NCBI GenBank assembly: GCA_012267435.1
Contig: JAAXGM010000013.1
Coordinates: 1 to 64,000 of the forward strand
Length of the DNA stretch: 64,000 nucleotides
Direction of reading: 5' to 3'
Source: Gemmatimonadota bacterium
Lineage (GTDB): Bacteria > Gemmatimonadota > Gemmatimonadetes > Longimicrobiales > Gaopeijiaceae
The position numbers and the translations under genes were made by a program. Every line of letters begins with the position of its first letter. The first letter of the stretch is position 1. The notes under the pieces were generated by a model that made no database searches, was not told the DNA's origin, and saw nothing but the letters and a program-made list of their open reading frames with translations. This document shows positions 1 through 61,068 of this stretch, one piece after another.

Positions 1-564
1 AGAAGGGGGTGGCGGAGTAGGGGGTCAGGTTTCCCCAGCGGGGGATCCGGAGGAGGATGCTATTCGAAGGTTGTCCGCCACATCAGGGGCGAAATGGCGA
101 ACAAGCCGCTCGCCCGCGCCGTGGGAGTAGAAATCCCCGATTCCGCCGGATCTGGCTTGGCGGATACTGAGGGAGAAGGGGGGGATGAGGAGGGGGGCCG
201 GAGCGATTGCGCTGGACACCTTCGTGATCGCGGTGCGGACGCCTGATCTGGAGATCCTGATATGATCTGCCGAAACCTCCGATGGCACCCACGGAATCGG
301 TGGCCGGCATCGTTGAAATACGCAAGGTGCACGGCACCGCGGGTCTGCTCAACCGGTTGCCGAGGAGCGAAGGACCCGCGCGCCAACCACCGGGAGGAGG
401 ACCCACATGGTCTTGGCCGAGCCGGGATAGATTGCCCCCCGCCCTCCGCTCAGCTCATACGCGTCACGCCGCCCGTTTCATGCCGGGCCAACGATAAACG
501 GCTTCGCGCACGCACATCATCACGACACTCGATCCCACATCACCAAGACACGCGATTAGAGAGT
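1..564. other. No supported gene; upstream region of the ATPase-PRTase gene
   Basis: I see no recognisable gene here. Minus-strand ORFs are short and rich in R, P and S, as expected of chance frames in GC-rich DNA. The plus-strand frame leading into the next gene is open from an ATG at 262 with a GGAG eight bases upstream, but residues 1-101 of that extension are Arg/Pro/Cys/His-rich and do not resemble the protein that follows. I therefore treat 262-564 as untranslated leader. No clear -35/-10 pair was found. Confidence 0.4.
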
Positions 565-3500
565 ATGGCCAGTCAGCCCGAAATCAGTTCCCAGTATACG
601 GCATCCCAAGAGATTGATCGACTCCTTGACTCAGAACAACGGCCCAGAGATAGACTTGGCAATCTGTGTCGGGCGATGCTTGCGCACCAGGGCGCTGATG
701 TCAGTAACATCAGCAATTCCGACGCCGTATCGCACGTTCTTTCCTCTCGTTCCTCTGGTCGTGACCAGCGCTTCTTCGCCGCCGTCTTCCTGCGCCTTTT
801 GTCCGTTCTCCCCAACGAAATCCACGATCTTGACATCGGGAAACATGTAGGTGTCACCAAACTGCTGGCCAAGCTCCCTCAGGTCTCAAAGGCGCTTAGC
901 GTCGACAGGAATTCCCAAGGGTATGAGCGCCTTCGCGCCTTGGAGATGGCCGCTGACAGGGCAGATCAATATCTCCGTGAAGCGCTAACGGTTCCCACCT
1001 CCCTCGCAGCTTTTGACCAGGTTTATCACCGCGTCATGCGCCTTTACCGGAACCCCTTGGTTCGCGCTATCAGCGGACCGTTTCTACCCGATTTCTTGTC
1101 GAAGTCTGCTGTAAGTGCCATTCTCACCACTGTCCAGAAATACGTTGCCGCCCCACCGCGTGATACAATGGCCACATACACCGATGCCGAGGCAACCCTC
1201 GAAGCTGTATTGGCCGAATGCATCCGTTACGATACACGCTTCGTGACACATTTTTACCAACCGTTTTTCCGAGCACTTCTGCACCGCCTGACGACCGATT
1301 ACAAGTCTAATCCCGCCAATTTGCCAGGCTGCCTATCCTTAACGAGCCTCGGTAAAAGATATCCATTCTCCGTCTCCGACGCCCAGTTGCGAGTCGCTTT
1401 CGCCGTCGAGAATCAGGGTCAAGGCATCGCATTCGACGTCGAGTTGACGCTTGATCCAGATCATTACTTGTCATTCGCCTCCCCGTCCCAGTTTTTCGAG
1501 CAAGTTCTTCCAGGAGAGCGCTTCGCGCCCATCGAGTTTCCTGCGATTGTTGACAGAGCAACCGATCAGCCCGTACTTGTTGTCTATAAGCTCACGTGGA
1601 GAAACGGTAATGGGTCCGCGAGAACTATCGAAGATTTTCTCGAACTTCCAACTCAACCAAGCGACATACCTTGGGATGAACTAACATATACCGATCCCTA
1701 TAGTCTCGAACCAGTACGCACCGCCGACGATCTCATCGGACGATCCGAGCATACGAGACGATTGATTTCAAAACTACGAGCCCAAAGCGTCGGATCGTTT
1801 TGCATCTCTGGACAGCGACGAGTAGGGAAAACTTCCGTCGTATTCACGTTGGCCCATCTTCCGGTCCTCAAGGACATTACAATACTTTATCTAGAAACCG
1901 GAATGTTTATCGACCCCGACGCCCAAGAGACCATTAACCGCCTTGGCAACAAGATCTGTAGGATCCTCCTTGAACGGCGGCCGATGCTTGCCGGATTGAC
2001 CACGCCCAACTTCACCGGCGCTCTCGCGCCACTCGATGGCTTTCTCTCGACCGCATTCGTCCGCGACCCGGACCTGCGTCTGGTCGTCGTCCTTGACGAA
2101 TTCGACGCTCTTCCCCCCGAACTTTATCGACGGAATAAGATCAGTCATGCCTTCTTTCTGACTCTTCGATCCCTGAGCGCCCAGCAACCGCTCGGATTTA
2201 TCTTGGTCGGGGGCGAAAGGATGGCCGAAATACTGAGTACACAGGGCGAAGTTCTCAACAAGTTTCGTCGTCTTCAAATTGACTATCTAGACAGCCACTC
2301 TCACTGGGCCGATTTTGTGGCGTTAGTTCGTCGTCCCGTAGAGGCTTGGGCTCAGATCAACGATGACGCTATCACGAAACTCTATGAAGTGACCGCCGGC
2401 AATCCCTTTTTTACAAAGTTTGTCTGTGCGGAATTAGTCGAAGACATGAAACGGCGGCAGGACGCAGATGTAACGGCCGTCGAGATGGATCGTGCAATCA
2501 AGACAGCCGTCAACGAAGCCAGCATCAATAACTTTCAACATTTCTGGGATGATGGTGTAGTGGCGAGCACCGATGAGAGAATTGATCAAGAGCGAGCATT
2601 GCGACGGCGAGTCTTGGTTGCACTCGGTGAAGTCCTTCGATCTAACCGTTCTAGTACTACAGAAAACATCGCGGAGAAGGCCTCTCGATTCGGCCTTTCT
2701 GAAACTGAAGTTCAGCGAATGCTTGGCGAATTCGAGAAAAGAATGGTCTTGGTTCAAGCAGACGGGCAGTATTCCTGTAAAGTGGGGCTCTTCGAGCGGT
2801 GGCTGGTCGACCAGGGCGTGAGTGAACTGGATCTATCGTTAGTGGAGGAGGAACACTTGCGGAGAATAAAGGAGGCTGAAGAGCGTAAGCGCATAAAGAT
2901 CGGAGAGATCAGTACTCTCGTGAATAGATGGGAAAACTATCGTGGAAGGCAAATCACCGACGGCGACTTGAAATCGTGGCTAGATCAATTTGCCAACATC
3001 GACGAACAAAGAATGATGTTTGAATTGCTCAAAAAGCTTCGGTTTTATTCTGGCGGTCTGATTCGAGAGAAATTGAGAAACGGTCACGGATTCGTTCGTC
3101 GTGAACTCGCTGGACGTGGTGTGGTTCGTCGTGCAGCTGGGGAGGGTGCAAGGAAAGTCACTGACAATATTTTGATTAGCTACTACGGCGGAGAGGAGAG
3201 ACGAGGACCGACCTACGCCAAGATCTATGCCGATGAGAATAAGATTTATCGTTCCCGCATCGCCGCCCCGGAGCGCCTTACCGAGAGGCTGGCAGAGTTG
3301 ATAGACGTTGCAGGTATTGTATTTGTCGACGACTTCATTGGCACAGGCCGAACGGCGGTGAGAACGCTGAAAGACTCCTTGTCGCCGATGGCAGAACTCC
3401 TCAAGCAACGTGAGGTCGATGTATTTCTGATTTCGGTTTCCGGTTTTGCGCGGGCAGCGAGGAAAATCAAGCGCGCGCTTTCCAGTGTGATTCACAGTTT

Positions 3501-3765
3501 TGAAGTGTCGATCGCAGATCCACTGGACGACACCGACAAGTGTTTTGCCGATAAATCGGCGATTCTGCCGGATCCGGCAAAGCGAGCGCGAGCCAAGGAA
3601 ATCGCAGAGAAGTATGGCAAGAGAATCGTCAAGAGGAGTCCCTTGGGTTTTGGCAACTGTCAAGCGCTTATTGTATTTGAAAACACGTGTCCAAACAACA
3701 GCTTGCCGATACTTTGGGGCCTGGGAGCGGACAACAGCTGGCGGCCCTTGTTCTCTAGGCCGTAA
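565..3765 (+). CDS. STAND/AAA-type ATPase fused to a phosphoribosyltransferase domain (putative defence or signalling protein)
   Basis: This is a 1,066-residue protein starting at ATG 565; the longer frame from 262 has an uncharacteristic N-terminus. Residues 1-255 are a mostly helical region with no recognised domain. Residues about 258-366 look like a beta-sandwich of CARDB/Ig type (LRVAFAVENQGQG). An AAA_16/STAND-like ATPase follows, with LIGRSEHT, Walker A GQRRVGKTS (K422) and Walker B VVVLDEFDAL (D511, E512). After a helical linker, the C-terminal 200 residues hold a type I phosphoribosyltransferase signature, VFVDDFIGTGRT (922-930), and end in CPNNSLPILWG, a tail I associate with conflict-linked PRTase-like proteins. 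No signal peptide is seen, so it is probably cytosolic. It stands alone without a co-oriented partner. Base composition is visibly AT-richer than its surroundings, which suggests transfer. Sensing by the N-terminus, ATP-driven switching and a PRPP- or nucleotide-linked effector are inferences from architecture only. Confidence 0.8.
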   Translation: MASQPEISSQYTASQEIDRLLDSEQRPRDRLGNLCRAMLAHQGADVSNISNSDAVSHVLSSRSSGRDQRFFAAVFLRLLSVLPNEIHDLDIGKHVGVTKLLAKLPQVSKALSVDRNSQGYERLRALEMAADRADQYLREALTVPTSLAAFDQVYHRVMRLYRNPLVRAISGPFLPDFLSKSAVSAILTTVQKYVAAPPRDTMATYTDAEATLEAVLAECIRYDTRFVTHFYQPFFRALLHRLTTDYKSNPANLPGCLSLTSLGKRYPFSVSDAQLRVAFAVENQGQGIAFDVELTLDPDHYLSFASPSQFFEQVLPGERFAPIEFPAIVDRATDQPVLVVYKLTWRNGNGSARTIEDFLELPTQPSDIPWDELTYTDPYSLEPVRTADDLIGRSEHTRRLISKLRAQSVGSFCISGQRRVGKTSVVFTLAHLPVLKDITILYLETGMFIDPDAQETINRLGNKICRILLERRPMLAGLTTPNFTGALAPLDGFLSTAFVRDPDLRLVVVLDEFDALPPELYRRNKISHAFFLTLRSLSAQQPLGFILVGGERMAEILSTQGEVLNKFRRLQIDYLDSHSHWADFVALVRRPVEAWAQINDDAITKLYEVTAGNPFFTKFVCAELVEDMKRRQDADVTAVEMDRAIKTAVNEASINNFQHFWDDGVVASTDERIDQERALRRRVLVALGEVLRSNRSSTTENIAEKASRFGLSETEVQRMLGEFEKRMVLVQADGQYSCKVGLFERWLVDQGVSELDLSLVEEEHLRRIKEAEERKRIKIGEISTLVNRWENYRGRQITDGDLKSWLDQFANIDEQRMMFELLKKLRFYSGGLIREKLRNGHGFVRRELAGRGVVRRAAGEGARKVTDNILISYYGGEERRGPTYAKIYADENKIYRSRIAAPERLTERLAELIDVAGIVFVDDFIGTGRTAVRTLKDSLSPMAELLKQREVDVFLISVSGFARAARKIKRALSSVIHSFEVSIADPLDDTDKCFADKSAILPDPAKRARAKEIAEKYGKRIVKRSPLGFGNCQALIVFENTCPNNSLPILWGLGADNSWRPLFSRP

Positions 3766-5215: not shown

Positions 5216-6363
5216 CCATCCCCCCTACCTCCCCACCCCTCAATCTCCCGCCGAACTCTCGCCACCTGATCGGCAAGCTCGTCTCTCGACGGCAGATACA
5301 GCTGGTACTTCGACGCGTAGATGTTGGCGTCCTCGGGGAGCGTCAGCTCAACCACGGCGTCGTTTGTCCGGTCGCAGAGCAGGATCCCGACGGTCGGCAG
5401 CTCGTCATCGGTCTTCACGTAGCGGTCGAAGTAGTTCACGTTACATCTGCATCTGGCCGAGATCCTGATGGGTCAGCTTCCCGGTCTTGAGGTCGATCAG
5501 CACGTAGCAGCGCAGCAGGCGGTTGTAGAATACGAGATCGACGAAGAAGTGACTGTCATCGAAGCTGAAGCGCTTCTGGCGCGCCTCGAACAGGAAGCCC
5601 TTGCCAAGCTCCAGCAGGAACTGTTGGAGCCGGTCGATGATGGCGATCTCCAGGTCGCTCTCGGAATACGCAGGCGTCTCCTCCAGACCGAGGAACTCCA
5701 GCACCACCGGATCCTTGATCAGGTCCGACGCCTTTTCGACCACCTGTCCCTCGCGGGCGAGGCGGCGAACCTCGTGCTTGTCGCGACTGAGCGCGAGCCG
5801 CTCGTACAGGGAGCTGTCCAGCTGCCGTTTGAGTTCGCGGACGCTCCAGCCGTTGTCCGCGGCCTCGATCTCGTAGAAACGGCGGGCTTCGGGGTCGGTT
5901 ACCGACAGCAGGGTGACGTAGTGGGACCAGCCGAGCGGGAACCGCTGCAGAAGGAGGACGGGCACTGAAGCCCCAGACTCCTCGCCATGCGAAACGGGCA
6001 ATTCGGAAAACAGTGTCTGCCGAATCTTCTCGGTGACGGAAACGGAAAACGCCGTCCGCCGCTTCTCGAACTCCGGCACGACCTCCTTGAACTCCACGTA
6101 GAAACGCCGGAACTGCCTCAGGTATCGCACGGAGAACCCCCGTCCGATCCTCTCCTGCAGCGCCGCCGAGAGCTTCCTGAGCGCCTGCGCGCCGTACTCG
6201 GCCCGGTCTGCGCCCCTCTGCTCGTACTCCACGATGTACCATCCGAACAGCCAATCCGCACGACCAGCGAGCGATCCACGGCGCGGGCAGCCGAACGCCG
6301 CGTCTCCTCATGCGTGTGCCGACACAACTCGACGAGGCGTTCGAAATCGAATGGCTGGCTCAC
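5212..6363 (-). pseudogene. DUF1016 (YhcG-like, PD-(D/E)XK) nuclease broken by two one-base frameshifts
   Basis: Three adjacent minus frames together spell one DUF1016 protein of about 380 residues. Frame 1 (GTG 6363) gives the N-terminus MSQPFDFERLVELCRHTHEE. Near 6262, CGGATTGGCTGTTC replaces the expected CGGAATTGGCTGTTC (one A lost), and the sequence resumes as NWLFGWYIVEYEQ in frame 2. Frame 2 carries the nuclease core, with SDLEIAIIDRLQQFLLELG, FVDLVFYNRLLRCYVLIDLK and HQDLGQMQM. Near 5443, ATGTAACGTGAAC has one extra A, giving a stop. Frame 3 resumes with NYFDRYVKTDDELPT and ELTLPEDANIYASKYQLYLP. DUF1016 proteins are PD-(D/E)XK-superfamily nucleases often found near restriction or defence genes. 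All catalytic segments survive, so the lesions are recent or are assembly errors. Confidence 0.8.
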
Positions 6364-51864: not shown

Positions 51865-52488
51865 TCAGCCTTGCGGAGAATCCGGGGTGTGAACTGACAG
51901 GAGCTTACCCACGTACTTCCCGATCAGGTCCGCTTCGACGTTGACGGGGGCGCCGGGGGTCAGGGCGGCCAGGTTGGTGTGCTCCCAGGTGAAGGGCACG
52001 ATCGCGATCCGCACCAAGTCGGAGCCGGGCAGCTCGCTGACGGTCAGGCTCACGCCGTTGAGGGTAATGGAACCGTGCGGGATGGTGGCGCGGGTCACTT
52101 CGGGGGGGATGCGGAAGGTGAGGAGGCGGGCGCCGTCCTCGGGAGCGGGGTCGGTCCGGGAGACCAGCGATCCGATCCCGTCGACGTGCCCCTGCACCAG
52201 ATGGCCGCCGAGACGGTCGCCTAGGCGGAGAGCTTGCTCCAGGTTGACGCGCGTACCGGTCCCGTAGGCGCTGGCGATGGTGCGCGCCAGCGTGGCGGGC
52301 ACCACGTCCACGGCGAACGTGGCTGCCTCGAGGGCGGCGACGGTCAGGCACGCCCCGTCGACCGCCACCGACGCGCCGTCGTTGAGGTCGGACGCGATGC
52401 CCGGGGCACGAATGGTCATCCGCCGGCCCTCCGGCCGGGTCGCAACCGCCACGACCGTTCCGACTTCCTCCACCAGCCCGGTGAACAT
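51865..52488 (-). CDS. ribE: Riboflavin synthase, alpha chain
   Basis: 207 residues from ATG 52488, sharing one base with the ribD stop (TGATG). It has two lumazine-binding barrels: MFTGLVEEVGTV and GASVAVDGACLTV in the first, GGHLVQGHVDGIGSL and ITLNGVSLTVSE in the second. It dismutates two lumazines to riboflavin and the RibH substrate, as a trimer. Confidence 0.94.
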   Translation of the reverse strand: MFTGLVEEVGTVVAVATRPEGRRMTIRAPGIASDLNDGASVAVDGACLTVAALEAATFAVDVVPATLARTIASAYGTGTRVNLEQALRLGDRLGGHLVQGHVDGIGSLVSRTDPAPEDGARLLTFRIPPEVTRATIPHGSITLNGVSLTVSELPGSDLVRIAIVPFTWEHTNLAALTPGAPVNVEADLIGKYVGKLLSVHTPDSPQG

Positions 52489-53624
52489 CAGCCTTCCCGA
52501 TCCAGGACCCAGAGGAGGTCGCGCCCGAACGCGGCCGGCGGCCCGGCGGGTCGCCACCCCTCCCAGGCCGTGTCGTCCAGCCCCGGGAAGGCCGGGACCG
52601 AGCCGGCTCCCAGCGTGAGCGGGGCCAAGAAGATGTAGAGGCGCTGCACGCGTCCCTCGCGCAGGAGCGACGAGGCGAGCACTCCACCCCCTTCGCACAG
52701 GAGAGAGGCGAGTCCCTCCCGGTGGCAGGTGTCCAGCACCGAACCCACGTCGAGGCCGTCCGCCGAGCGAGGCACGGCGTGCACCGTGGCGCCACGCTGT
52801 CGAAGCACCCGTACCCGGTCCCCGGCCGCGTCGGCGCCGGTGAAGATGCGCACCCGCCCCCCGCCGTCGTCCCGCAGGAGTCGGGCTTCCGGGGACATGC
52901 GGGCGCGGGAATCCAACACGATGCGGTCGGGCGCGCGGCGGGGCTCGGGCCGCCCGCGAGCGGTGAGGCGGGGATCGTCGATCTTCATGGTGTTCGCTCC
53001 CACCATGATCGCGTCGAAGCCGGCGCGCAGGTAGTGCACGTGTTCGCGCGCAGGCGGCCCCGTCAGCCCGGTCTGCTCGCCCACCCGCGAAATGCGTCCG
53101 TCCAGGCTGAGCGCGAGCTTGAGCGCGACGTACGGCGCGGCCGTGCGCGCAACGTGGAAGAAGGCGGGGTTGTGCGACGCGGCCCGGGTGTGCGAAAAGG
53201 CGGGGCCGTCGACGCGCAGCCCGGCGGCGCGCAGCACGGCGGCCCCGCCGGCGCCCGCCCCCGGATCCGCGGCGCCGAAAACCACGCGCGCCACCCCGGC
53301 GTCGAGGAGGGCACGCGCGCATGGAGGAGTGCGGCCCGTGTGCGCGCACGGCTCGAGGCTGGTGTAGGCGGTGGCGCCCCGGGCCCTCTCGCCCGCCTCG
53401 GCGAGCGCGTGCACCTCCGCGTGGGGTCCGCCGAGCTCCCGGTGCCATCCCTCCCCCACCACCTCGCCCTCCCGCACCACCACGCACCCGACCATCGGGT
53501 TGGGCGAGACCCGTCCCCAGCCGCGGCGGCCGAGCCCGACGGCTCGCTCGAGGAAGCTTAGATCCTCGTCCGACACCCGTCCGTCCGGCACCGGCTCGAT
53601 CACGCGTGTCCCCCTCTCGGTCAT
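52488..53624 (-). CDS. ribD: Riboflavin biosynthesis deaminase/reductase RibD
   Basis: 378 residues from ATG 53624. The deaminase zinc site is HAEVHAL plus PCAHTGRTPPC. The reductase half begins YVALKLALSLDGRISRVGEQ and has FDAIMVGANTMKIDDPRLTA and LCEGGGVLASSLL. First gene of the rib cluster. Only 43 bases separate it from the helicase-nuclease stop, too little for an FMN riboswitch. Confidence 0.93.
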   Translation of the reverse strand: MTERGTRVIEPVPDGRVSDEDLSFLERAVGLGRRGWGRVSPNPMVGCVVVREGEVVGEGWHRELGGPHAEVHALAEAGERARGATAYTSLEPCAHTGRTPPCARALLDAGVARVVFGAADPGAGAGGAAVLRAAGLRVDGPAFSHTRAASHNPAFFHVARTAAPYVALKLALSLDGRISRVGEQTGLTGPPAREHVHYLRAGFDAIMVGANTMKIDDPRLTARGRPEPRRAPDRIVLDSRARMSPEARLLRDDGGGRVRIFTGADAAGDRVRVLRQRGATVHAVPRSADGLDVGSVLDTCHREGLASLLCEGGGVLASSLLREGRVQRLYIFLAPLTLGAGSVPAFPGLDDTAWEGWRPAGPPAAFGRDLLWVLDREG

Positions 53625-53667
53625 GGGACAAGTGCCATTCAGTGTGTATCCGCTTGGAGTGGTGTTC

Positions 53668-56600
53668 CTATGGAGGCGAATCTTTCGCTCCAAAACCATG
53701 CGGGAAACGAAGTCTCCTTTGCGCCGTCAGGCGCTGAAGATCAAACGCCTCCAACACTGCCCTAAGATGGTCGTCGGAACCGGGATTGATCGCCCCATCA
53801 TGCGACAATCTGCTTGCCATGAGTTTGAGCTCGCTCAGCGGGATCTCCTCGAACTTTCGCGGACCGCGCTCGCGAAGTACAGTTGCAGAGCTGCCCTTGG
53901 TGCGCACAATCGAGTTGATTAGGCCGCCGCTCCCGGACTCGTCTTCCTTGGCGATTCTCCCCTGTTGAATGGCACGCTGGAGGGCCCTGTTCATGGCCCG
54001 CTTGAGTTGGCGCCCCATTCGGGCGATGCCGATTCCGCTCAGATAGAGATTGTAGGCTCGCCTCGCGAGCATCGGGCCCTCCACATCTATGATTCGACAA
54101 AGCCCTTCCGCCACGCGGCCCGTCGTGGCATTCCGCGGATCTGGACCAGCCCGTCCTTCGAAGACTACGTAAGACGCGATGCCGCTGGAACCAGGATCGA
54201 ACGCAACGGGGTCATGGATGGCGGGATGCACGCTCTCCTCGCGAAGTGTGGGTGGATCTGGTGTTTCCTGGGGCCCCGCCATGTGCTCCTTGGGCACCGG
54301 AACGGCGTCACTGGAGATAGTGGACTCTGGCGTGACCTCCTCGCGGACATGGGTAGCCGGAGGCGGCACCTCCGGGGACGGTGGCTGGCCCGACACGGGT
54401 TCAGCAGGGCCCGTGTTCTCTCGCAGTTCGTGACCTACAGGCTTCGGTGCCGACGGCCCACCAGCCGATTCATCGACGCCGCTTGGCCAGATGCGGAGAC
54501 GATCGAGTTCCGCCCACACGGGCTCCATGGCCTTGTCGCGATCTCGGTAGAAGTCGCTACCTCGAATCCGGACGAAGTGCCAGCCGGCCCGCTCAAGGTC
54601 GCGCTGACGCGCCATATCCCGCTCGTAGCGATCAGGACCATGCCACCTGTCCCCATCGCATTCCACCGCCAATCGGCCCTTCATGCCCTCGACGACTAGG
54701 TCGATCCTGTAGCGGTGATTCACCGGGTCGCCCACCGACACCTGCGTCCTCACATGAAAGCCACGCGCCGTGATGCGCTCGTAGACATGTCGTTCGAACT
54801 TTGACTCAAACCGCTGCTCCTCCGGATCGGTCGGCTCCCGGCCGGGATCAAGCATGTAGCTGAGAAGGCGATGGCGCATGCACCTGTCGCTGAGCAGGTC
54901 GAGCTCAACCGAGTGGAAGAGCCACAGCTGATCCTGGGCGCGACTGGCCGCGACGTTGAAACGCTGTCGGGCCGCCTCGTTTGCGAGCACACCGATCCTG
55001 TGCTCCCCTGGTGCCGCGACCATGCTCAGGAAGATCACGTGGCGCTCGTCGCCCTGGAAGGCGTAGGCATCACCGCAGATCAGCCGCCGCTCCTCAAGCA
55101 CCTCGGGATCGAGCACCTGGAGCAGCATGCTCTCTATCAGCCTCGCCTGCGCCTTGCCTTGGAGACTGATGACGCCCATCGTCATCCCAGCGTACCGCGG
55201 GTCGCCGATGCACCCGCGGATCTGCGCGACGATCGCTTCTGCTTCTGGCGGATTCACTGCGTGCTGGGCACTTCCTTTGCGGTATCCATCATCCACATGC
55301 CGGCGTTTGATTGGCGGAAGCCGATCAGCGGAGTAGACGCGCAATGGATCGAGTGGCGTACCGCTGGAAGCGTAGCAAAGGTTATTCGAGAACTGGATGA
55401 TTTCAGGCATGCACCGGAAGTGCTCGCGCAACACGATGTTCCGGCCAAATCGAATCTTCGCGTTCCCGTAGACGCTACTCTGTGGGTAGAGCGCAACTTT
55501 GTGTGGCACATTACGCAGAAAGGAATGTTGAAGGGCGGCGACATCCTCATCGGCAACACCCACGCCCGCAGGGCTGATCTGTTGATCGTCACCGACGACG
55601 ATGATCTTCTTGCCAATATAGAACAAGAACAGGCTTTCAATGCCTAGCTGGCTCGCCTCGTCGACTATGACCACATCGTAGAGTCCCGGCGAAGGGTCGA
55701 TCATTTCAGCCACAAGATACCGAGGCATGATCCAGATCGGGATCGCCGCGCGGCAATCACGCATGTACTCGCGCGCCTCTCGCTTCAACCGGGCAATCCT
55801 CGCGGACCTCCCGGTGCCCTTGCCCATCGCGCGCACCGCCTCACGCCAGCCCTTCAGCGCATTGCGTTGGGGCGGTGAGAGACGTTGAAAAAAGTGCCTC
55901 CACGCTCGCTGCGCAGCGGCGTCTCCGACGAGTTGTCTCTTCCTCTTCTCTGCCTCGTGGCGTCTTTGCGATAGCTTTCGCTCGTAGTCGAGATCGGATC
56001 GCCGCCTAAGCCATTCGTCAGCCGAAGCCCAGCGCCACGCCTCCTCCCAACGGGACAGCCGATCATCCCAGACAGGTTCGTCGAGGCTCGCCTCGATTTC
56101 CTTGGCCAGGTCGGGAGCATCCAGCCTGATCGCGGCCTCGATTCGATTGCGTCGCGATTGCGCGTCGCGCGCCTGGTCGATTGCGACCACCTTCGCGTGG
56201 CATTTACTGTAGGCAGCCACGTCACGTCCCGCTATCGCTTCCGCGAGCTCGTTCACAACAGGGTGCGCGTCATGCAGGCCGCGAAGGCGTGACAATGGCT
56301 GGGCGCATAGCTCGACTATCCTTCCTGCTTCGGTCAACGCCTTGTCAATGTCCGCCGCGTCCGCCAGATCCACCCACCGCAACGCCTCTCCGTCCATCCA
56401 GTTGGGCGTGGGGATCGGGGGCGACATCCTGGACAGTTGCCTGAATGCCTCGATGCACGCGTCGCCGTATTCGAGCACCCTCCTTAGAGCCTCAATGTGC
56501 GGTTGAAGTTCGGCTGGGCATAATCGCCGGTCGATCGAGATGTCAGTGACTCCCGCCTCCCGCCACCGGCTCCCAAGATCCGAAAGCGCAAACTCAAGGT

Positions 56601-58884
56601 CGAGGTCGTCGCACACCAAGCGTAGTCTCCGCACATCGTCGGCGGGTCGACCGGCGACAAAAACGTCTTTCCTGAAATAGGTTCGTCCCTTGAGCACCTT
56701 CGGCGTGAACAATCCGAATCGCTTCCACTTGCCGCCGCCCCGGAGATGGTGAGCCACGACCGCCGCATCGGAACGTACCCTTCGCGGGTCGAGTCCCTTC
56801 GGTCGAGTCACGGTTCGATTGCCAAGCCTAGCCAGTAGCTGTTCGATCTTCCCGATGCGCTCCTCCGTCAGGTTGAGTAGCCTGCGCCACCTGGTGTCTC
56901 GACCCGTGACCAAGTCTTTCAGCGCCATGGGCAGCCACGCGTTGTGTTGGCCCTGGAGAGCGAGCTCTTTCCGTCGCGCCTCAAGGCTGTTGAGATCGCG
57001 GGCTAGACTGGCTCGTACCTCGCCCGACAACGCCCGAATCGGCGCGTAGGCCGAGTGCGCGTGGAGCACGTCGTCCACTTGGTCACGGCGCCTCCGTGCC
57101 TCAATCTCATTCGATACGATACGCGCGAAGTCCCCCGGCGCGGTAAGAGCAGCAACCTTCGGGGTCTTGAGCAGCGAATCCTCGACATCCCTGTCCGAGT
57201 ACTGCCTCCGAATCTCCAGCCATTGGGCCGCCTCGGCATTGGAAACCGTCGGACGATTCGGCACATCGCGCCCCAACCGAAACCACCCAAACGTCGCGCG
57301 CTCGTCGGCGACCCTCGCTGCGATTGTTGAAGCCGTACCCTGGTATGCTCCATCGAGCAGGACATGTGACAGAGTTTCGTCTTTCCGCAGGCTTTGGATC
57401 TCCGAGTCGATTCGAGCGATGTTCCTTCGAGCCTTGTCAAGCTCACGATCAATCTGCGCGATCCTGTAGCCATAATCGTAGGGCGAGTAGGACGCTTGTC
57501 GGTTCGTGATCCCCTCGACGGCGGCGTTAACCTCTGCGAAAGCGTCGCCGCCGTGCCCGAGCAGGCTGACGCACAGAGGCTGGATCTCAGGTGGGAGCTT
57601 GCGCTTTAGCACTCGGAGGGCGCGTCCCGTTTCCGCTGTGATTAGTACTCGCTTGCCCTTGGCGAGAAGGTGGCACATGAGGTTGGCGATGGTGTGGCTC
57701 TTCCCCGTGCCGGGTGGGCCTTGAACCAGCACCCCTTGGTTGCTGTCGATCGCGTTGACGATACGTCGCTGCTCGCGGTTGGCCGCCAATGGGAAGTAGA
57801 TCTCCGACGGCGAAGGCGTGCCCCTACTACTTGGCCCGCCATTTCGGCCGGGGTCTTTGGACGGTTGTCGCTGTCCGCGAGAGGTGCGCTTTCCATCTCC
57901 ATTTCCCCACTCGTCATCAGTCAGTTGACCCCATCCGCGAGGCACGTCGGCGGCTTCGTTCTCGAGGTTCTGGATCAGTTTCTCGTAGATGCGGACCATG
58001 CCCGTCTGAGGGCGTCTGCGGAGAATCAGTGCGGGTGCAAAGCTCACGACGGGGTCACTACGAGTCGCCCGCTTGGCTCCGAGTCCATCGGACCACACTG
58101 CGCCAGGGCTTAGAGCTCCTGCCCAAGTCCTGAGCGGAGCATGGATTAGAGACCGATCCCAGATCGCGTCTCCCACCTCGTCAAGCTGCGCTTCGACCGC
58201 GTCATAGTATGATCGATCGGGTCGGAGTTCGGCCTCAAGCATGTCGTCTTCGACTCGGAGGTTGGCCCCTTCGCCGGGAGCCTCCACGCGAATGACACTC
58301 TTCTCTGGATCGAAGGTCAACTCGACTTGGCTGACCACCGCGTGTCGGCGAACCCGAACAGGCCCACCCCTGGTCGGTGCCTGCCAGTCCATCAGGCCAA
58401 TTCCCAGGACGACCTCGACGATCTCGCTCTGCTTCTGCAATTGATGGTACAGCGCGAAGAGACGGGCATAGAGATCCTGGACCTGCCTGCGACGGCGATC
58501 TTCCGTCGCCCACGCCTCCCGCCGCGACAGAAAGGCCCCAATAGCCTCGACGTCCTCCGGGAAGTCCGCGAGCTGCCCCTCGTCGATCGCTTCGGAGAGT
58601 TCCTCCAACTTGATTTCCTTCAACCATACCGCTACGATATCGTGTGGTTTCGGCTCGCGCTCGAATTCCTGCTTGCGGACTTCGAGCCACGGACCTGCCT
58701 CATCGTAGTCGTCGTTCCAAGCGCCACTTCGGCAGCCCGCTGCTTGTGGCATCTCGTCGAACCAGAGCACGGAATCGTATTCGGCGACGTCACGCACGGT
58801 CTTGCTGCGAAGGCCAACGAACTCCTTCAAGTAACGAGCAAGCCGTAGCGAACGACTTTCGACTCCACTACGGTCAGCGTTCAA
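53668..58884 (-). CDS. Giant superfamily 1 helicase with C-terminal restriction-like nuclease (defence-type)
   Basis: 1,738 residues if it starts at TTG 58884 (AAGGAG ten bases upstream); the track's TTG 59058 adds a basic, unlikely prefix. Residues 1-380 are an unclassified N-terminal region. Walker A GPPGTGKSHTIANLM (G389-K395) starts the split helicase; Walker B DVVIVDEASQLGIES (D1075, E1076) and motif III KKIIVVGDDQQISP follow, with GDAYAFQGDERHVIFLSMVA as motif V/VI. Near 1360-1460 is a Vsr/DUF559-like nuclease: RFESKFERHVYERI, YRIDLVVEGMKGRLAVECDG and WHFVRIRGSDFYRD. The end resembles DUF3320. The order recalls DUF4011/Hhe-type defence helicases, but no DUF4011 was recognised. It is lower in GC than its neighbours and interrupts a housekeeping run, so likely transferred. 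Confidence 0.85.
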   Translation of the reverse strand: MNADRSGVESRSLRLARYLKEFVGLRSKTVRDVAEYDSVLWFDEMPQAAGCRSGAWNDDYDEAGPWLEVRKQEFEREPKPHDIVAVWLKEIKLEELSEAIDEGQLADFPEDVEAIGAFLSRREAWATEDRRRRQVQDLYARLFALYHQLQKQSEIVEVVLGIGLMDWQAPTRGGPVRVRRHAVVSQVELTFDPEKSVIRVEAPGEGANLRVEDDMLEAELRPDRSYYDAVEAQLDEVGDAIWDRSLIHAPLRTWAGALSPGAVWSDGLGAKRATRSDPVVSFAPALILRRRPQTGMVRIYEKLIQNLENEAADVPRGWGQLTDDEWGNGDGKRTSRGQRQPSKDPGRNGGPSSRGTPSPSEIYFPLAANREQRRIVNAIDSNQGVLVQGPPGTGKSHTIANLMCHLLAKGKRVLITAETGRALRVLKRKLPPEIQPLCVSLLGHGGDAFAEVNAAVEGITNRQASYSPYDYGYRIAQIDRELDKARRNIARIDSEIQSLRKDETLSHVLLDGAYQGTASTIAARVADERATFGWFRLGRDVPNRPTVSNAEAAQWLEIRRQYSDRDVEDSLLKTPKVAALTAPGDFARIVSNEIEARRRRDQVDDVLHAHSAYAPIRALSGEVRASLARDLNSLEARRKELALQGQHNAWLPMALKDLVTGRDTRWRRLLNLTEERIGKIEQLLARLGNRTVTRPKGLDPRRVRSDAAVVAHHLRGGGKWKRFGLFTPKVLKGRTYFRKDVFVAGRPADDVRRLRLVCDDLDLEFALSDLGSRWREAGVTDISIDRRLCPAELQPHIEALRRVLEYGDACIEAFRQLSRMSPPIPTPNWMDGEALRWVDLADAADIDKALTEAGRIVELCAQPLSRLRGLHDAHPVVNELAEAIAGRDVAAYSKCHAKVVAIDQARDAQSRRNRIEAAIRLDAPDLAKEIEASLDEPVWDDRLSRWEEAWRWASADEWLRRRSDLDYERKLSQRRHEAEKRKRQLVGDAAAQRAWRHFFQRLSPPQRNALKGWREAVRAMGKGTGRSARIARLKREAREYMRDCRAAIPIWIMPRYLVAEMIDPSPGLYDVVIVDEASQLGIESLFLFYIGKKIIVVGDDQQISPAGVGVADEDVAALQHSFLRNVPHKVALYPQSSVYGNAKIRFGRNIVLREHFRCMPEIIQFSNNLCYASSGTPLDPLRVYSADRLPPIKRRHVDDGYRKGSAQHAVNPPEAEAIVAQIRGCIGDPRYAGMTMGVISLQGKAQARLIESMLLQVLDPEVLEERRLICGDAYAFQGDERHVIFLSMVAAPGEHRIGVLANEAARQRFNVAASRAQDQLWLFHSVELDLLSDRCMRHRLLSYMLDPGREPTDPEEQRFESKFERHVYERITARGFHVRTQVSVGDPVNHRYRIDLVVEGMKGRLAVECDGDRWHGPDRYERDMARQRDLERAGWHFVRIRGSDFYRDRDKAMEPVWAELDRLRIWPSGVDESAGGPSAPKPVGHELRENTGPAEPVSGQPPSPEVPPPATHVREEVTPESTISSDAVPVPKEHMAGPQETPDPPTLREESVHPAIHDPVAFDPGSSGIASYVVFEGRAGPDPRNATTGRVAEGLCRIIDVEGPMLARRAYNLYLSGIGIARMGRQLKRAMNRALQRAIQQGRIAKEDESGSGGLINSIVRTKGSSATVLRERGPRKFEEIPLSELKLMASRLSHDGAINPGSDDHLRAVLEAFDLQRLTAQRRLRFPHGFGAKDSPP

Positions 58885-59077
58885 TTCAAGCCATCTCCTT
58901 CGACCATCGTGCCGACGGATTCCTCCATGTGGTTTCCAAATAGCGCGTGCTTTCCACCTGCCTGTTCCGCCCAGCCGCGAACCAAGATAACGTGGATGCG
59001 CGGACGGTGCCCTGTGGACACCAAGAGCCCAAAGCGTGAGCCAGAGCGACTTCTCCAAGTAGAGATCAAGCCCTCCG

Positions 59078-60034
59078 TTATCGCGTAATCCGCAGGCTTA
59101 GGGAGCCGAACACGCTGCCGGCGCCCGGGTCGAAGGGCTGCACCGAGAGGTCCGGCAAGCCATCGAACCCCGCGGCCCAACCGATCTCGCCCGCCACCAG
59201 AATCACCTGCCAGGTGCGGGAGATGCCGGCGAAGAGGAGCAGACGATCCAGTGCGGGACCGTCGAGCGTTACGCCGCGCGGCCGACGGCCCGATTCCGGG
59301 CCCTCAATGGTGACGGTTCCCGAGTAGCGGTCCCATCCGACGCCGGCAACGATGCCCGCGGCCCGGAACTCCTTGCCGATCAGGGCGCGGACGGAGGTTG
59401 CCGCCGGTTCGAATCGCACGCTGATCGGTGAGTCCCCGGCGCCCAGCAGGACATCTCCGAAGAAGCGTCTCACGGCGGAGACCGAGACACCCGGAACGTC
59501 GAAGGACTCGCGGAGCAGGCCGAGGCGGGCACCGATTCCGGCCGAGTAGGCGTTGTCCCCGAAGCCGTCCGCCTCCGCAAGCCCGATTACGCCAACGGAA
59601 GCGACCAGATCCAGCGACAGGAAGCCCCCGTACCGCAGTGCCCAGCGGAAGCCGTCGAATAGCCCGACCGCTCCCTCGAGCGATGCTTTGGTGACGGTCG
59701 AGCGGAGTTCGGGAAGGTTGATGGCCAAGGCCTCAGCGAGGTCGGGAAGCGGGATTCGAGTACCCGTGAAGCGGGCGCTCAGCGCCATGCGCGGACCCAG
59801 CCCGCGCCGCCATCCCAGGGTACTCGAAGTCCCCGGGATGTCGCTGCCCGCCGATCCGGCCAGGCCGATGCCCGATGCGGCCGCCTGGTATGCCGTGGCC
59901 CCGGCGGCGCACCATATGGCCCCACCGGACGCGTCGCCGCAGCGGTCGGTGAGTTCCGCGACCGCCTGCGCGCGCGCCGGCGACGCGAGAACCGCAAGGA
60001 CGAGCACCAGTACCGGTCCGGCGGCGACCCTCAC
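59078..60034 (-). CDS. Putative outer-membrane beta-barrel protein
   Basis: 318 residues from GTG 60034, overlapping the purM stop by four bases. Signal peptide RVAAGPVLVLVLAVLASPARAQA. The remainder is a series of alternating hydrophobic strands rich in glycine and aromatic residues (RWALRYGGFLSLDLVASVGV, VILVAGEIGWAAGFDGLPDL), ending SVFGSLSLRITR, which would suit the barrel assembly machinery. No specific family is recognised. A pair of cysteines (RCGD...IWCAAG) lies near the N-terminus. Confidence 0.65.
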   Translation of the reverse strand: MRVAAGPVLVLVLAVLASPARAQAVAELTDRCGDASGGAIWCAAGATAYQAAASGIGLAGSAGSDIPGTSSTLGWRRGLGPRMALSARFTGTRIPLPDLAEALAINLPELRSTVTKASLEGAVGLFDGFRWALRYGGFLSLDLVASVGVIGLAEADGFGDNAYSAGIGARLGLLRESFDVPGVSVSAVRRFFGDVLLGAGDSPISVRFEPAATSVRALIGKEFRAAGIVAGVGWDRYSGTVTIEGPESGRRPRGVTLDGPALDRLLLFAGISRTWQVILVAGEIGWAAGFDGLPDLSVQPFDPGAGSVFGSLSLRITR

Positions 60035-61068
60035 CCCAATTCCACCCCCGACCCGGCGACCACCTCCCCCGCGATCCACGCCTCCTCGCCGCGGGCTCGC
60101 AGGCGGGAGACGAGGCCGTCGGCTTCCGTGGGAGCGACCACCAACAGCATGCCCACGCCCATGTTGAAGACGCGGTACATTTCCTCGCGCGCCACGCCGC
60201 CCGCCCGCGCCAGCACGCCGAAAACGGCGGGAGGCCGCCAACTGGCGGTGTCGACGCGCGCGCCCAGCCCCGGCCCCAGCGAACGGGGCAGGTTTCCGGG
60301 GATGCCCCCGCCGGTGACGTGCGCCAACGCGCGAACGGTGCCGCGTTCAAGCTCGGGGCAGAGCGAGCCCAGATAGCTCCGGTGCACCGCCAGCAGGGTG
60401 TCGGCGACCGATTGTCCGGAATCGGGGAACGGGCTGTCGGCGTCGAGCCCCAGGACGTCGAAGACGATGCGGCGGGCCAGCGTGTACCCGTTGGTGTGTA
60501 GGCCGGTGGAGCCCAGCGCGACCAGCGCGTCGCCGGCTCGCGTGCGCGAACCATCGAGCAGCGCGCCCCGTTCGGCGATGCCGACGATGAACCCCGCCAG
60601 GTCGTATTCACCGGGCGCGTAGAAGTCGGGCATCTGCGCCGTCTCGCCTCCCAGCAGCGCGCAGCCGTTGTCGCGGCACGCATGGGCAACCCCGGAGACC
60701 ACCTGACCCACCACTCCGGCGTCCATGTCGCCGGTGGCGAGATAGTCCATGAAGAAAAGTGGCCGCGCGCCCTGCACCAGGATGTCGTTCACGCAGTGGT
60801 TGACCAGATCCGTCCCCACCGTGTCGTGGCGGCCGGAGAGGAACGCCACCTTGAGCTTGGTGCCCACCCCGTCCGCGCTCGAGACCAGCACCGGCGCCTC
60901 CATTCCGCCCGGCACCGCGTACATGCCCCCGAATGAACCCATTCCCGCAAGGGTGTGGCGGTCGTGGGTGCTCGCAACCAGCGACTTGATCGCCTGTTTC
61001 GCCCGATCGGCCGCGTCCAGGTCGACGCCCGCCGCGCGGTAGTCCAGTCCCGGGGAATCGTCAGACAA
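60031..61068 (-). CDS. purM: Phosphoribosylformylglycinamidine cyclo-ligase
   Basis: 345 residues from TTG 61068 with AAAGGAG six bases upstream; it overlaps the PfkB stop by eight bases. Conserved parts are VLVSSADGVGTKLKVAFLSG, LVNHCVNDILVQGARPLFFM, LLGGETAQMPDFYAPGEYDL and VTGGGIPGNLPRSLGPG. It closes the imidazole ring to AIR in purine synthesis. Confidence 0.94.
   Translation of the reverse strand: MSDDSPGLDYRAAGVDLDAADRAKQAIKSLVASTHDRHTLAGMGSFGGMYAVPGGMEAPVLVSSADGVGTKLKVAFLSGRHDTVGTDLVNHCVNDILVQGARPLFFMDYLATGDMDAGVVGQVVSGVAHACRDNGCALLGGETAQMPDFYAPGEYDLAGFIVGIAERGALLDGSRTRAGDALVALGSTGLHTNGYTLARRIVFDVLGLDADSPFPDSGQSVADTLLAVHRSYLGSLCPELERGTVRALAHVTGGGIPGNLPRSLGPGLGARVDTASWRPPAVFGVLARAGGVAREEMYRVFNMGVGMLLVVAPTEADGLVSRLRARGEEAWIAGEVVAGSGVELG

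Follow-up and report, generated by a model that had tools for sequence, protein, structure and literature searches.

A horizontally acquired helicase-nuclease gene with a likely anti-phage role between a beta-barrel-like gene and ribD in a Gemmatimonadota bacterium

Several described defence proteins provide a frame for the gene analysed here. Hhe (NF042953 / PDLC02194) has DUF4011 and consists of an N-terminal domain, a split SF1 helicase and a nuclease, in that order. Mokosh MkoA/MkoC have a related SF1 helicase core, ProA (NF058533) has a comparable helicase, nuclease and C-terminus, and PDC-S37 (PDLC05009) is a candidate family. DUF4011 genes can be part of the core genome, as in P. aeruginosa, where one flanks core defence hotspot 1 in all isolates (PMC10250203). 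Our search of the literature on PDC-S37, ProA or MTES_1575 found nothing useful, and for PDC-S37 it found no literature at all.

The gene lies in a 64,000-nucleotide stretch of contig JAAXGM010000013.1 (assembly GCA_012267435.1), referred to as the window. It spans 53668-58884 on the minus strand and encodes 1738 amino acids, with the stop at 53668 in the ORF listing of the window. The best start is the TTG at 58884, which is preceded by a good ribosome-binding site, AAGGAG (58895..58900). The ORF and coordinates of an earlier note on this DNA proved correct. A family alignment of 43 colinear proteins begins at residue ~8-10 of the 1738-residue protein. Therefore, a longer frame from the TTG at 59058 is not a likely start; homology is absent upstream of residue ~8. 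A scan of the leader for a sigma-70 promoter gave no match.

Domain architecture of the protein

Pfam recognises AAA_11, AAA_12, MTES_1575 and, more weakly, DUF559 in the window protein. The motor is an SF1 helicase of the UPF1/DNA2-like type with motifs I, II, III and VI all intact. Walker A, GPPGTGKSH (residues 389-397, 57694..57720, minus strand), falls in the AAA_11 match and is (nearly) invariant in the 43 proteins. The second helicase half (54910..55683, minus strand), matched by AAA_12, contains DEAS (II), GDDQQ (III), QGDER and RFNVAASRA (VI). About 620 residues separate Walker A from motifs II, III and VI, which bears out the split helicase proposed in the earlier note. The conservation profile shows a long, poorly conserved insertion between the motifs (residues ~450-1060, 55705..57537, minus strand).

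The proposed Vsr/DUF559-like nuclease was also found. MTES_1575 (PF18741) matches residues 1363-1460 (54505..54798, minus strand) with an E-value of 7e-30 and 103.4 bits against a cut-off of 38.2, and DUF559 matches at 9e-5. The active site is intact: D1395, E1408-C-D1410, H1415, R1426 and R1428 are invariant in the 43 proteins, and Q1427 is kept in 42 of them. The signature residues of helicase and nuclease are all present in the window protein and nearly invariant across the alignment. The stretch that follows the nuclease varies from 0 to 444 residues within the family. A DUF3320-like end, claimed previously, appears here only as a sub-threshold stretch (54001..54123, minus strand; 14.9 bits against the Pfam cut-off of 25).

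The N-terminal domain (residues 9-325, 57910..58860, minus strand) is family-specific and conserved among the relatives. In the window protein it has no match in Pfam or PADLOC; neither its family profile nor a Foldseek search with its model matched the PDB, and it was sought in phage records with no result. AlphaFold models it with a pLDDT of 92.8. Pfam does not detect DUF4011 in the window protein at threshold, in agreement with the earlier claim, and the proposal of a new variant with an N-terminus unlike DUF4011 is upheld. However, a very remote relationship can be detected with profiles. DUF4011 matches one of the 43 family members (1.2e-4), and in an hhalign comparison of the domain with DUF4011 nothing beyond the GLGLLxW hairpin aligned (P 0.0015, probability 17%). 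Reciprocal HMM searches recovered the same GLGLLxW register with up to 14.9 and 11.5 bits, compared with at most 4.5 and 2.2 bits for 20 shuffles each and below 0 for reversed sequences. In a DUF4011 model (pLDDT 74.8), helices and strands follow one another in a similar order, and the two models share a top viral neighbour, A0A8S5P0T8 (E 7e-3 and 3e-3, with low TM-scores). Because several weak profile and model lines converge, the domain is likely to be a strongly diverged DUF4011 counterpart rather than a wholly new domain.

A clean insertion at the ribD junction

The gene is surrounded by housekeeping genes, outside any defence island. One flank is ribD (52488..53624, minus strand), present in 11/11 genus genomes and 77/78 family genomes. 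The other is a conserved gene for a beta-barrel-like protein with no Pfam match (59078..60115, minus strand), present in 11/11 and 74/78, respectively. The barrel gene adjoins ribD in 10/10 other genus genomes and in all 69 comparable family genomes, that is, the others in which a single contig holds both genes. The gap between them is -19 to 249 bp in those 69 genomes, as opposed to 5456 bp in the window only. In all ten genus-mates, the empty site reads CGGAG-ATGGCCG-C or a close variant between the barrel stop codon and the ribD ATG. Alignment to these ten sites, which the earlier note had suggested as a way to find the insertion points, located them: a segment of 5447 bp (53626..59072) sits exactly at the short barrel-ribD spacer and replaces 7 bp (consensus ATGGCCG). 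The segment consists of the helicase-nuclease gene flanked by 188 bp on its upstream and 42 bp on its downstream side, consistent with the close fit of the flanks described before. The reported difference in composition is also real, with GC 0.615 and GC3 0.70 for the gene as opposed to GC 0.68-0.75 and GC3 0.79-0.91 for the flanking genes (GC3 from ribD, the barrel gene, argS, ribBA, metK and a sugar kinase). The gene is a horizontal acquisition, as the earlier note had supposed, and it entered recently and alone, by a clean insertion.

Such a precise single-gene insertion, together with the plasmid and integrase context of some relatives, could also be expected of a mobile or selfish element, a self-moving gene that resembles defence proteins only by chance. 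We looked for transposon signatures and found none: the empty-site alignment and repeats scan revealed neither target duplication nor terminal repeats, and the insert contains no recombinase. There is one occupied site, and the insert has little beyond the gene itself, which makes a selfish element improbable. The genome is metagenome-derived and fragmented (236 contigs, 68% complete), which speaks for an assembly chimera, but both junctions lie exactly in the narrow space between two genes, and the sequence on either side matches the same genus at 71-90%. A chimera is therefore hardly credible. The earlier idea of an insertion hotspot found no support, since the junction is empty in 69/69 other family genomes and no second cargo was found there. 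The site is thus an insertion point and not a demonstrated hotspot.

The insertion leaves the original GGAG of ribD beside the barrel gene (53622-53699 and 59073-59076), and ribD is therefore without its ribosome-binding site. Its start may now lie inside the 3' end of the inserted gene (ATG 53699), or it may be translationally coupled.

Relatives, genomic context and probable function

We retrieved 64 related loci; 42 intact, full-length relatives are colinear with the window protein from the N-terminal domain through the helicase to the nuclease. They originate from Pseudomonadota, Chlorobiota, Acidobacteriota, Chloroflexota, Bacillota, Planctomycetota, an Aenigmatarchaeote and others. In the tree, the window protein is nested with strong support among Pseudomonadota, Chlorobiota and Acidobacteriota. 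Together with the window protein, they form a coherent, widespread and unnamed family that includes archaea. The annotation of the plasmid relatives goes no further than 'AAA domain-containing' or 'DUF3320 domain-containing', and our search for a subfamily member with a tested phenotype returned none. Four relatives (L004, L042, L050 and L066) are split into two ORFs, possibly by frameshifts, decay or assembly errors.

The earlier note had considered that the gene might occupy this place across the phylum. Instead, none of the ten genus-mates carries it, and of 394 other genomes in the phylum, just 5 have a relative, in each case a distant N-terminal one.

Relatives adjoin diverse defence genes, which were listed without a matched background rate. 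One on an A. pittii plasmid directly follows the BREX gene brxL, and one in Sphingobium is preceded by an R-M pair and followed by AbiE genes; the N-terminal profile recognises these BREX-linked and R-M-linked proteins at 2e-21 and 1e-23, respectively. A Streptomyces relative is near Wadjet-like TIGR02679/TIGR02680 genes. Other neighbours are type III R-M, type IV restriction, AbiU, PsyrT, pAgo and phage-type integrases. McrBC-like pairs at L036, L038 and L054 are a reading of the sequences rather than a family match and were not counted. An obligate partner gene was considered and rejected, as no gene recurs beyond a few loci. The brxL-linked relative (L127:7263-12002) has an extra N-terminal HTH-like segment and may represent a BREX accessory gene that has gone unrecognised; the same match occurs on several further A. 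pittii plasmids.

Two other genes in the window deserve mention. A 1167-aa ORF in a low-GC region (0.52) at 262-3765 (plus strand) combines an AAA/STAND-like ATPase with PRTase-CE (Pfam 4e-45), is of a conflict-system type and is probably another acquired gene. A YhcG/DUF1016 PDDEXK nuclease (Pfam 8e-34) is encoded at 5441-6232 (minus strand).

The gene most likely encodes a stand-alone effector directed against phages (or mobile DNA), a one-gene system that arrived by horizontal transfer. We infer this defence role, and with it support the earlier description of a defence-type helicase-nuclease, because 43 proteins from many phyla conserve all of the helicase and nuclease motifs in intact form, and because a recent insertion of foreign GC and GC3 stands at a junction empty in every comparable relative. 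The patchy distribution, the defence proteins among the best profile matches, and the defence neighbours of relatives with no constant partner point the same way. The housekeeping surroundings of the gene in the window, and the fact that DUF4011 genes can belong to the core genome, speak against it. The UPF1/DNA2-type motor would load on invading or aberrant nucleic acid and travel along it. The DUF4011-like N-terminal domain, fused just before Walker A, would serve as a substrate-recognition or gating module, and the motor would feed the strand to the C-terminal Vsr-like nuclease for cutting. Phage DNA is the presumed substrate, and the order of loading, translocation and cutting is likewise presumed. 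A broader and more tentative proposal is that this is a widespread, unnamed family of single-gene anti-phage systems, present in bacteria and archaea and also on plasmids beside BREX, whose defining, conserved ~320-residue N-terminal domain senses a feature of invading DNA different from that sensed by Hhe/ProA.

A host helicase-nuclease for DNA repair or RNA processing would account for some of the same features. Vsr itself is a repair nuclease, and the motor falls within the UPF1/SMUBP2/DNA2-like SF1 group, with weak PDB matches to SEN1, NAM7 and SMUBP-2. However, a host function agrees poorly with a gene of foreign composition that is missing from all genus-mates, patchy across phyla and next to defence genes in relatives, and we consider it unlikely.

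Comparison with known defence systems

The best profile matches of the protein are defence proteins: PDC-S37 (2e-66), ProA (1e-66), MkoC (2e-33) and Hhe (1e-29). For PDC-S37, ProA, Hhe and Mokosh alike, most or all of the profile alignment lies in the helicase and what follows it. A PADLOC search, recommended in the earlier note, gave PDC-S37 as the best match, from the helicase core to the C-terminus. This alignment covers positions 771-1523 of 1550 in the profile and falls short of full length. In five further relatives, the PDC-S37 match starts at or after the helicase (profile position 282 at the earliest), and the first ~280 profile positions are matched in none of them. ProA shares the helicase, nuclease and C-terminus (1.4e-66), but the window protein reaches 224.9 bits and the relatives 174-257 bits against a cut-off of 1500, and the first ~600 profile positions are never matched. 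The Hhe trait of an SF1 helicase followed by a Vsr/MTES_1575 nuclease is present, whereas the score for the Hhe equivalog NF042953 is 134.8 bits against 2000. The Mokosh alignment is essentially limited to the helicase, while the window protein has an MTES_1575 nuclease after it.

The same genome encodes a canonical DUF4011 helicase-nuclease on another contig (C74, loci L002/L003), a full ORF of 2021 aa with a clear DUF4011 (1e-47). It shares 38% identity with the window protein across the second half of the helicase and the nuclease, and its detection shows that a DUF4011 domain would not have escaped the search. This separate protein bears on the possibility that the window protein belongs to the Hhe/ProA (DUF4011) group proper, with an N-terminus too diverged for Pfam to recognise, a question of classification that is compatible with defence. 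The profile links in one register, the similar element order and the shared nearest viral model favour membership. In contrast, the coexistence of both proteins, the NCBIfam scores (225 and 135 bits against cut-offs of 1500 and 2000), and the failure of known profiles ever to align across the N-terminal domain weigh against it. Membership is possible but rather doubtful.

The defence profile libraries searched cover this sharply bounded family of 42 intact relatives only from the helicase onward. The exact empty site and the confidently modelled N-terminal domain make the role of the DUF4011-type module testable by domain swap. The window protein is best read as a stand-alone helicase-nuclease with an anti-phage role, uncharacterised so far and a sister of Hhe/ProA.
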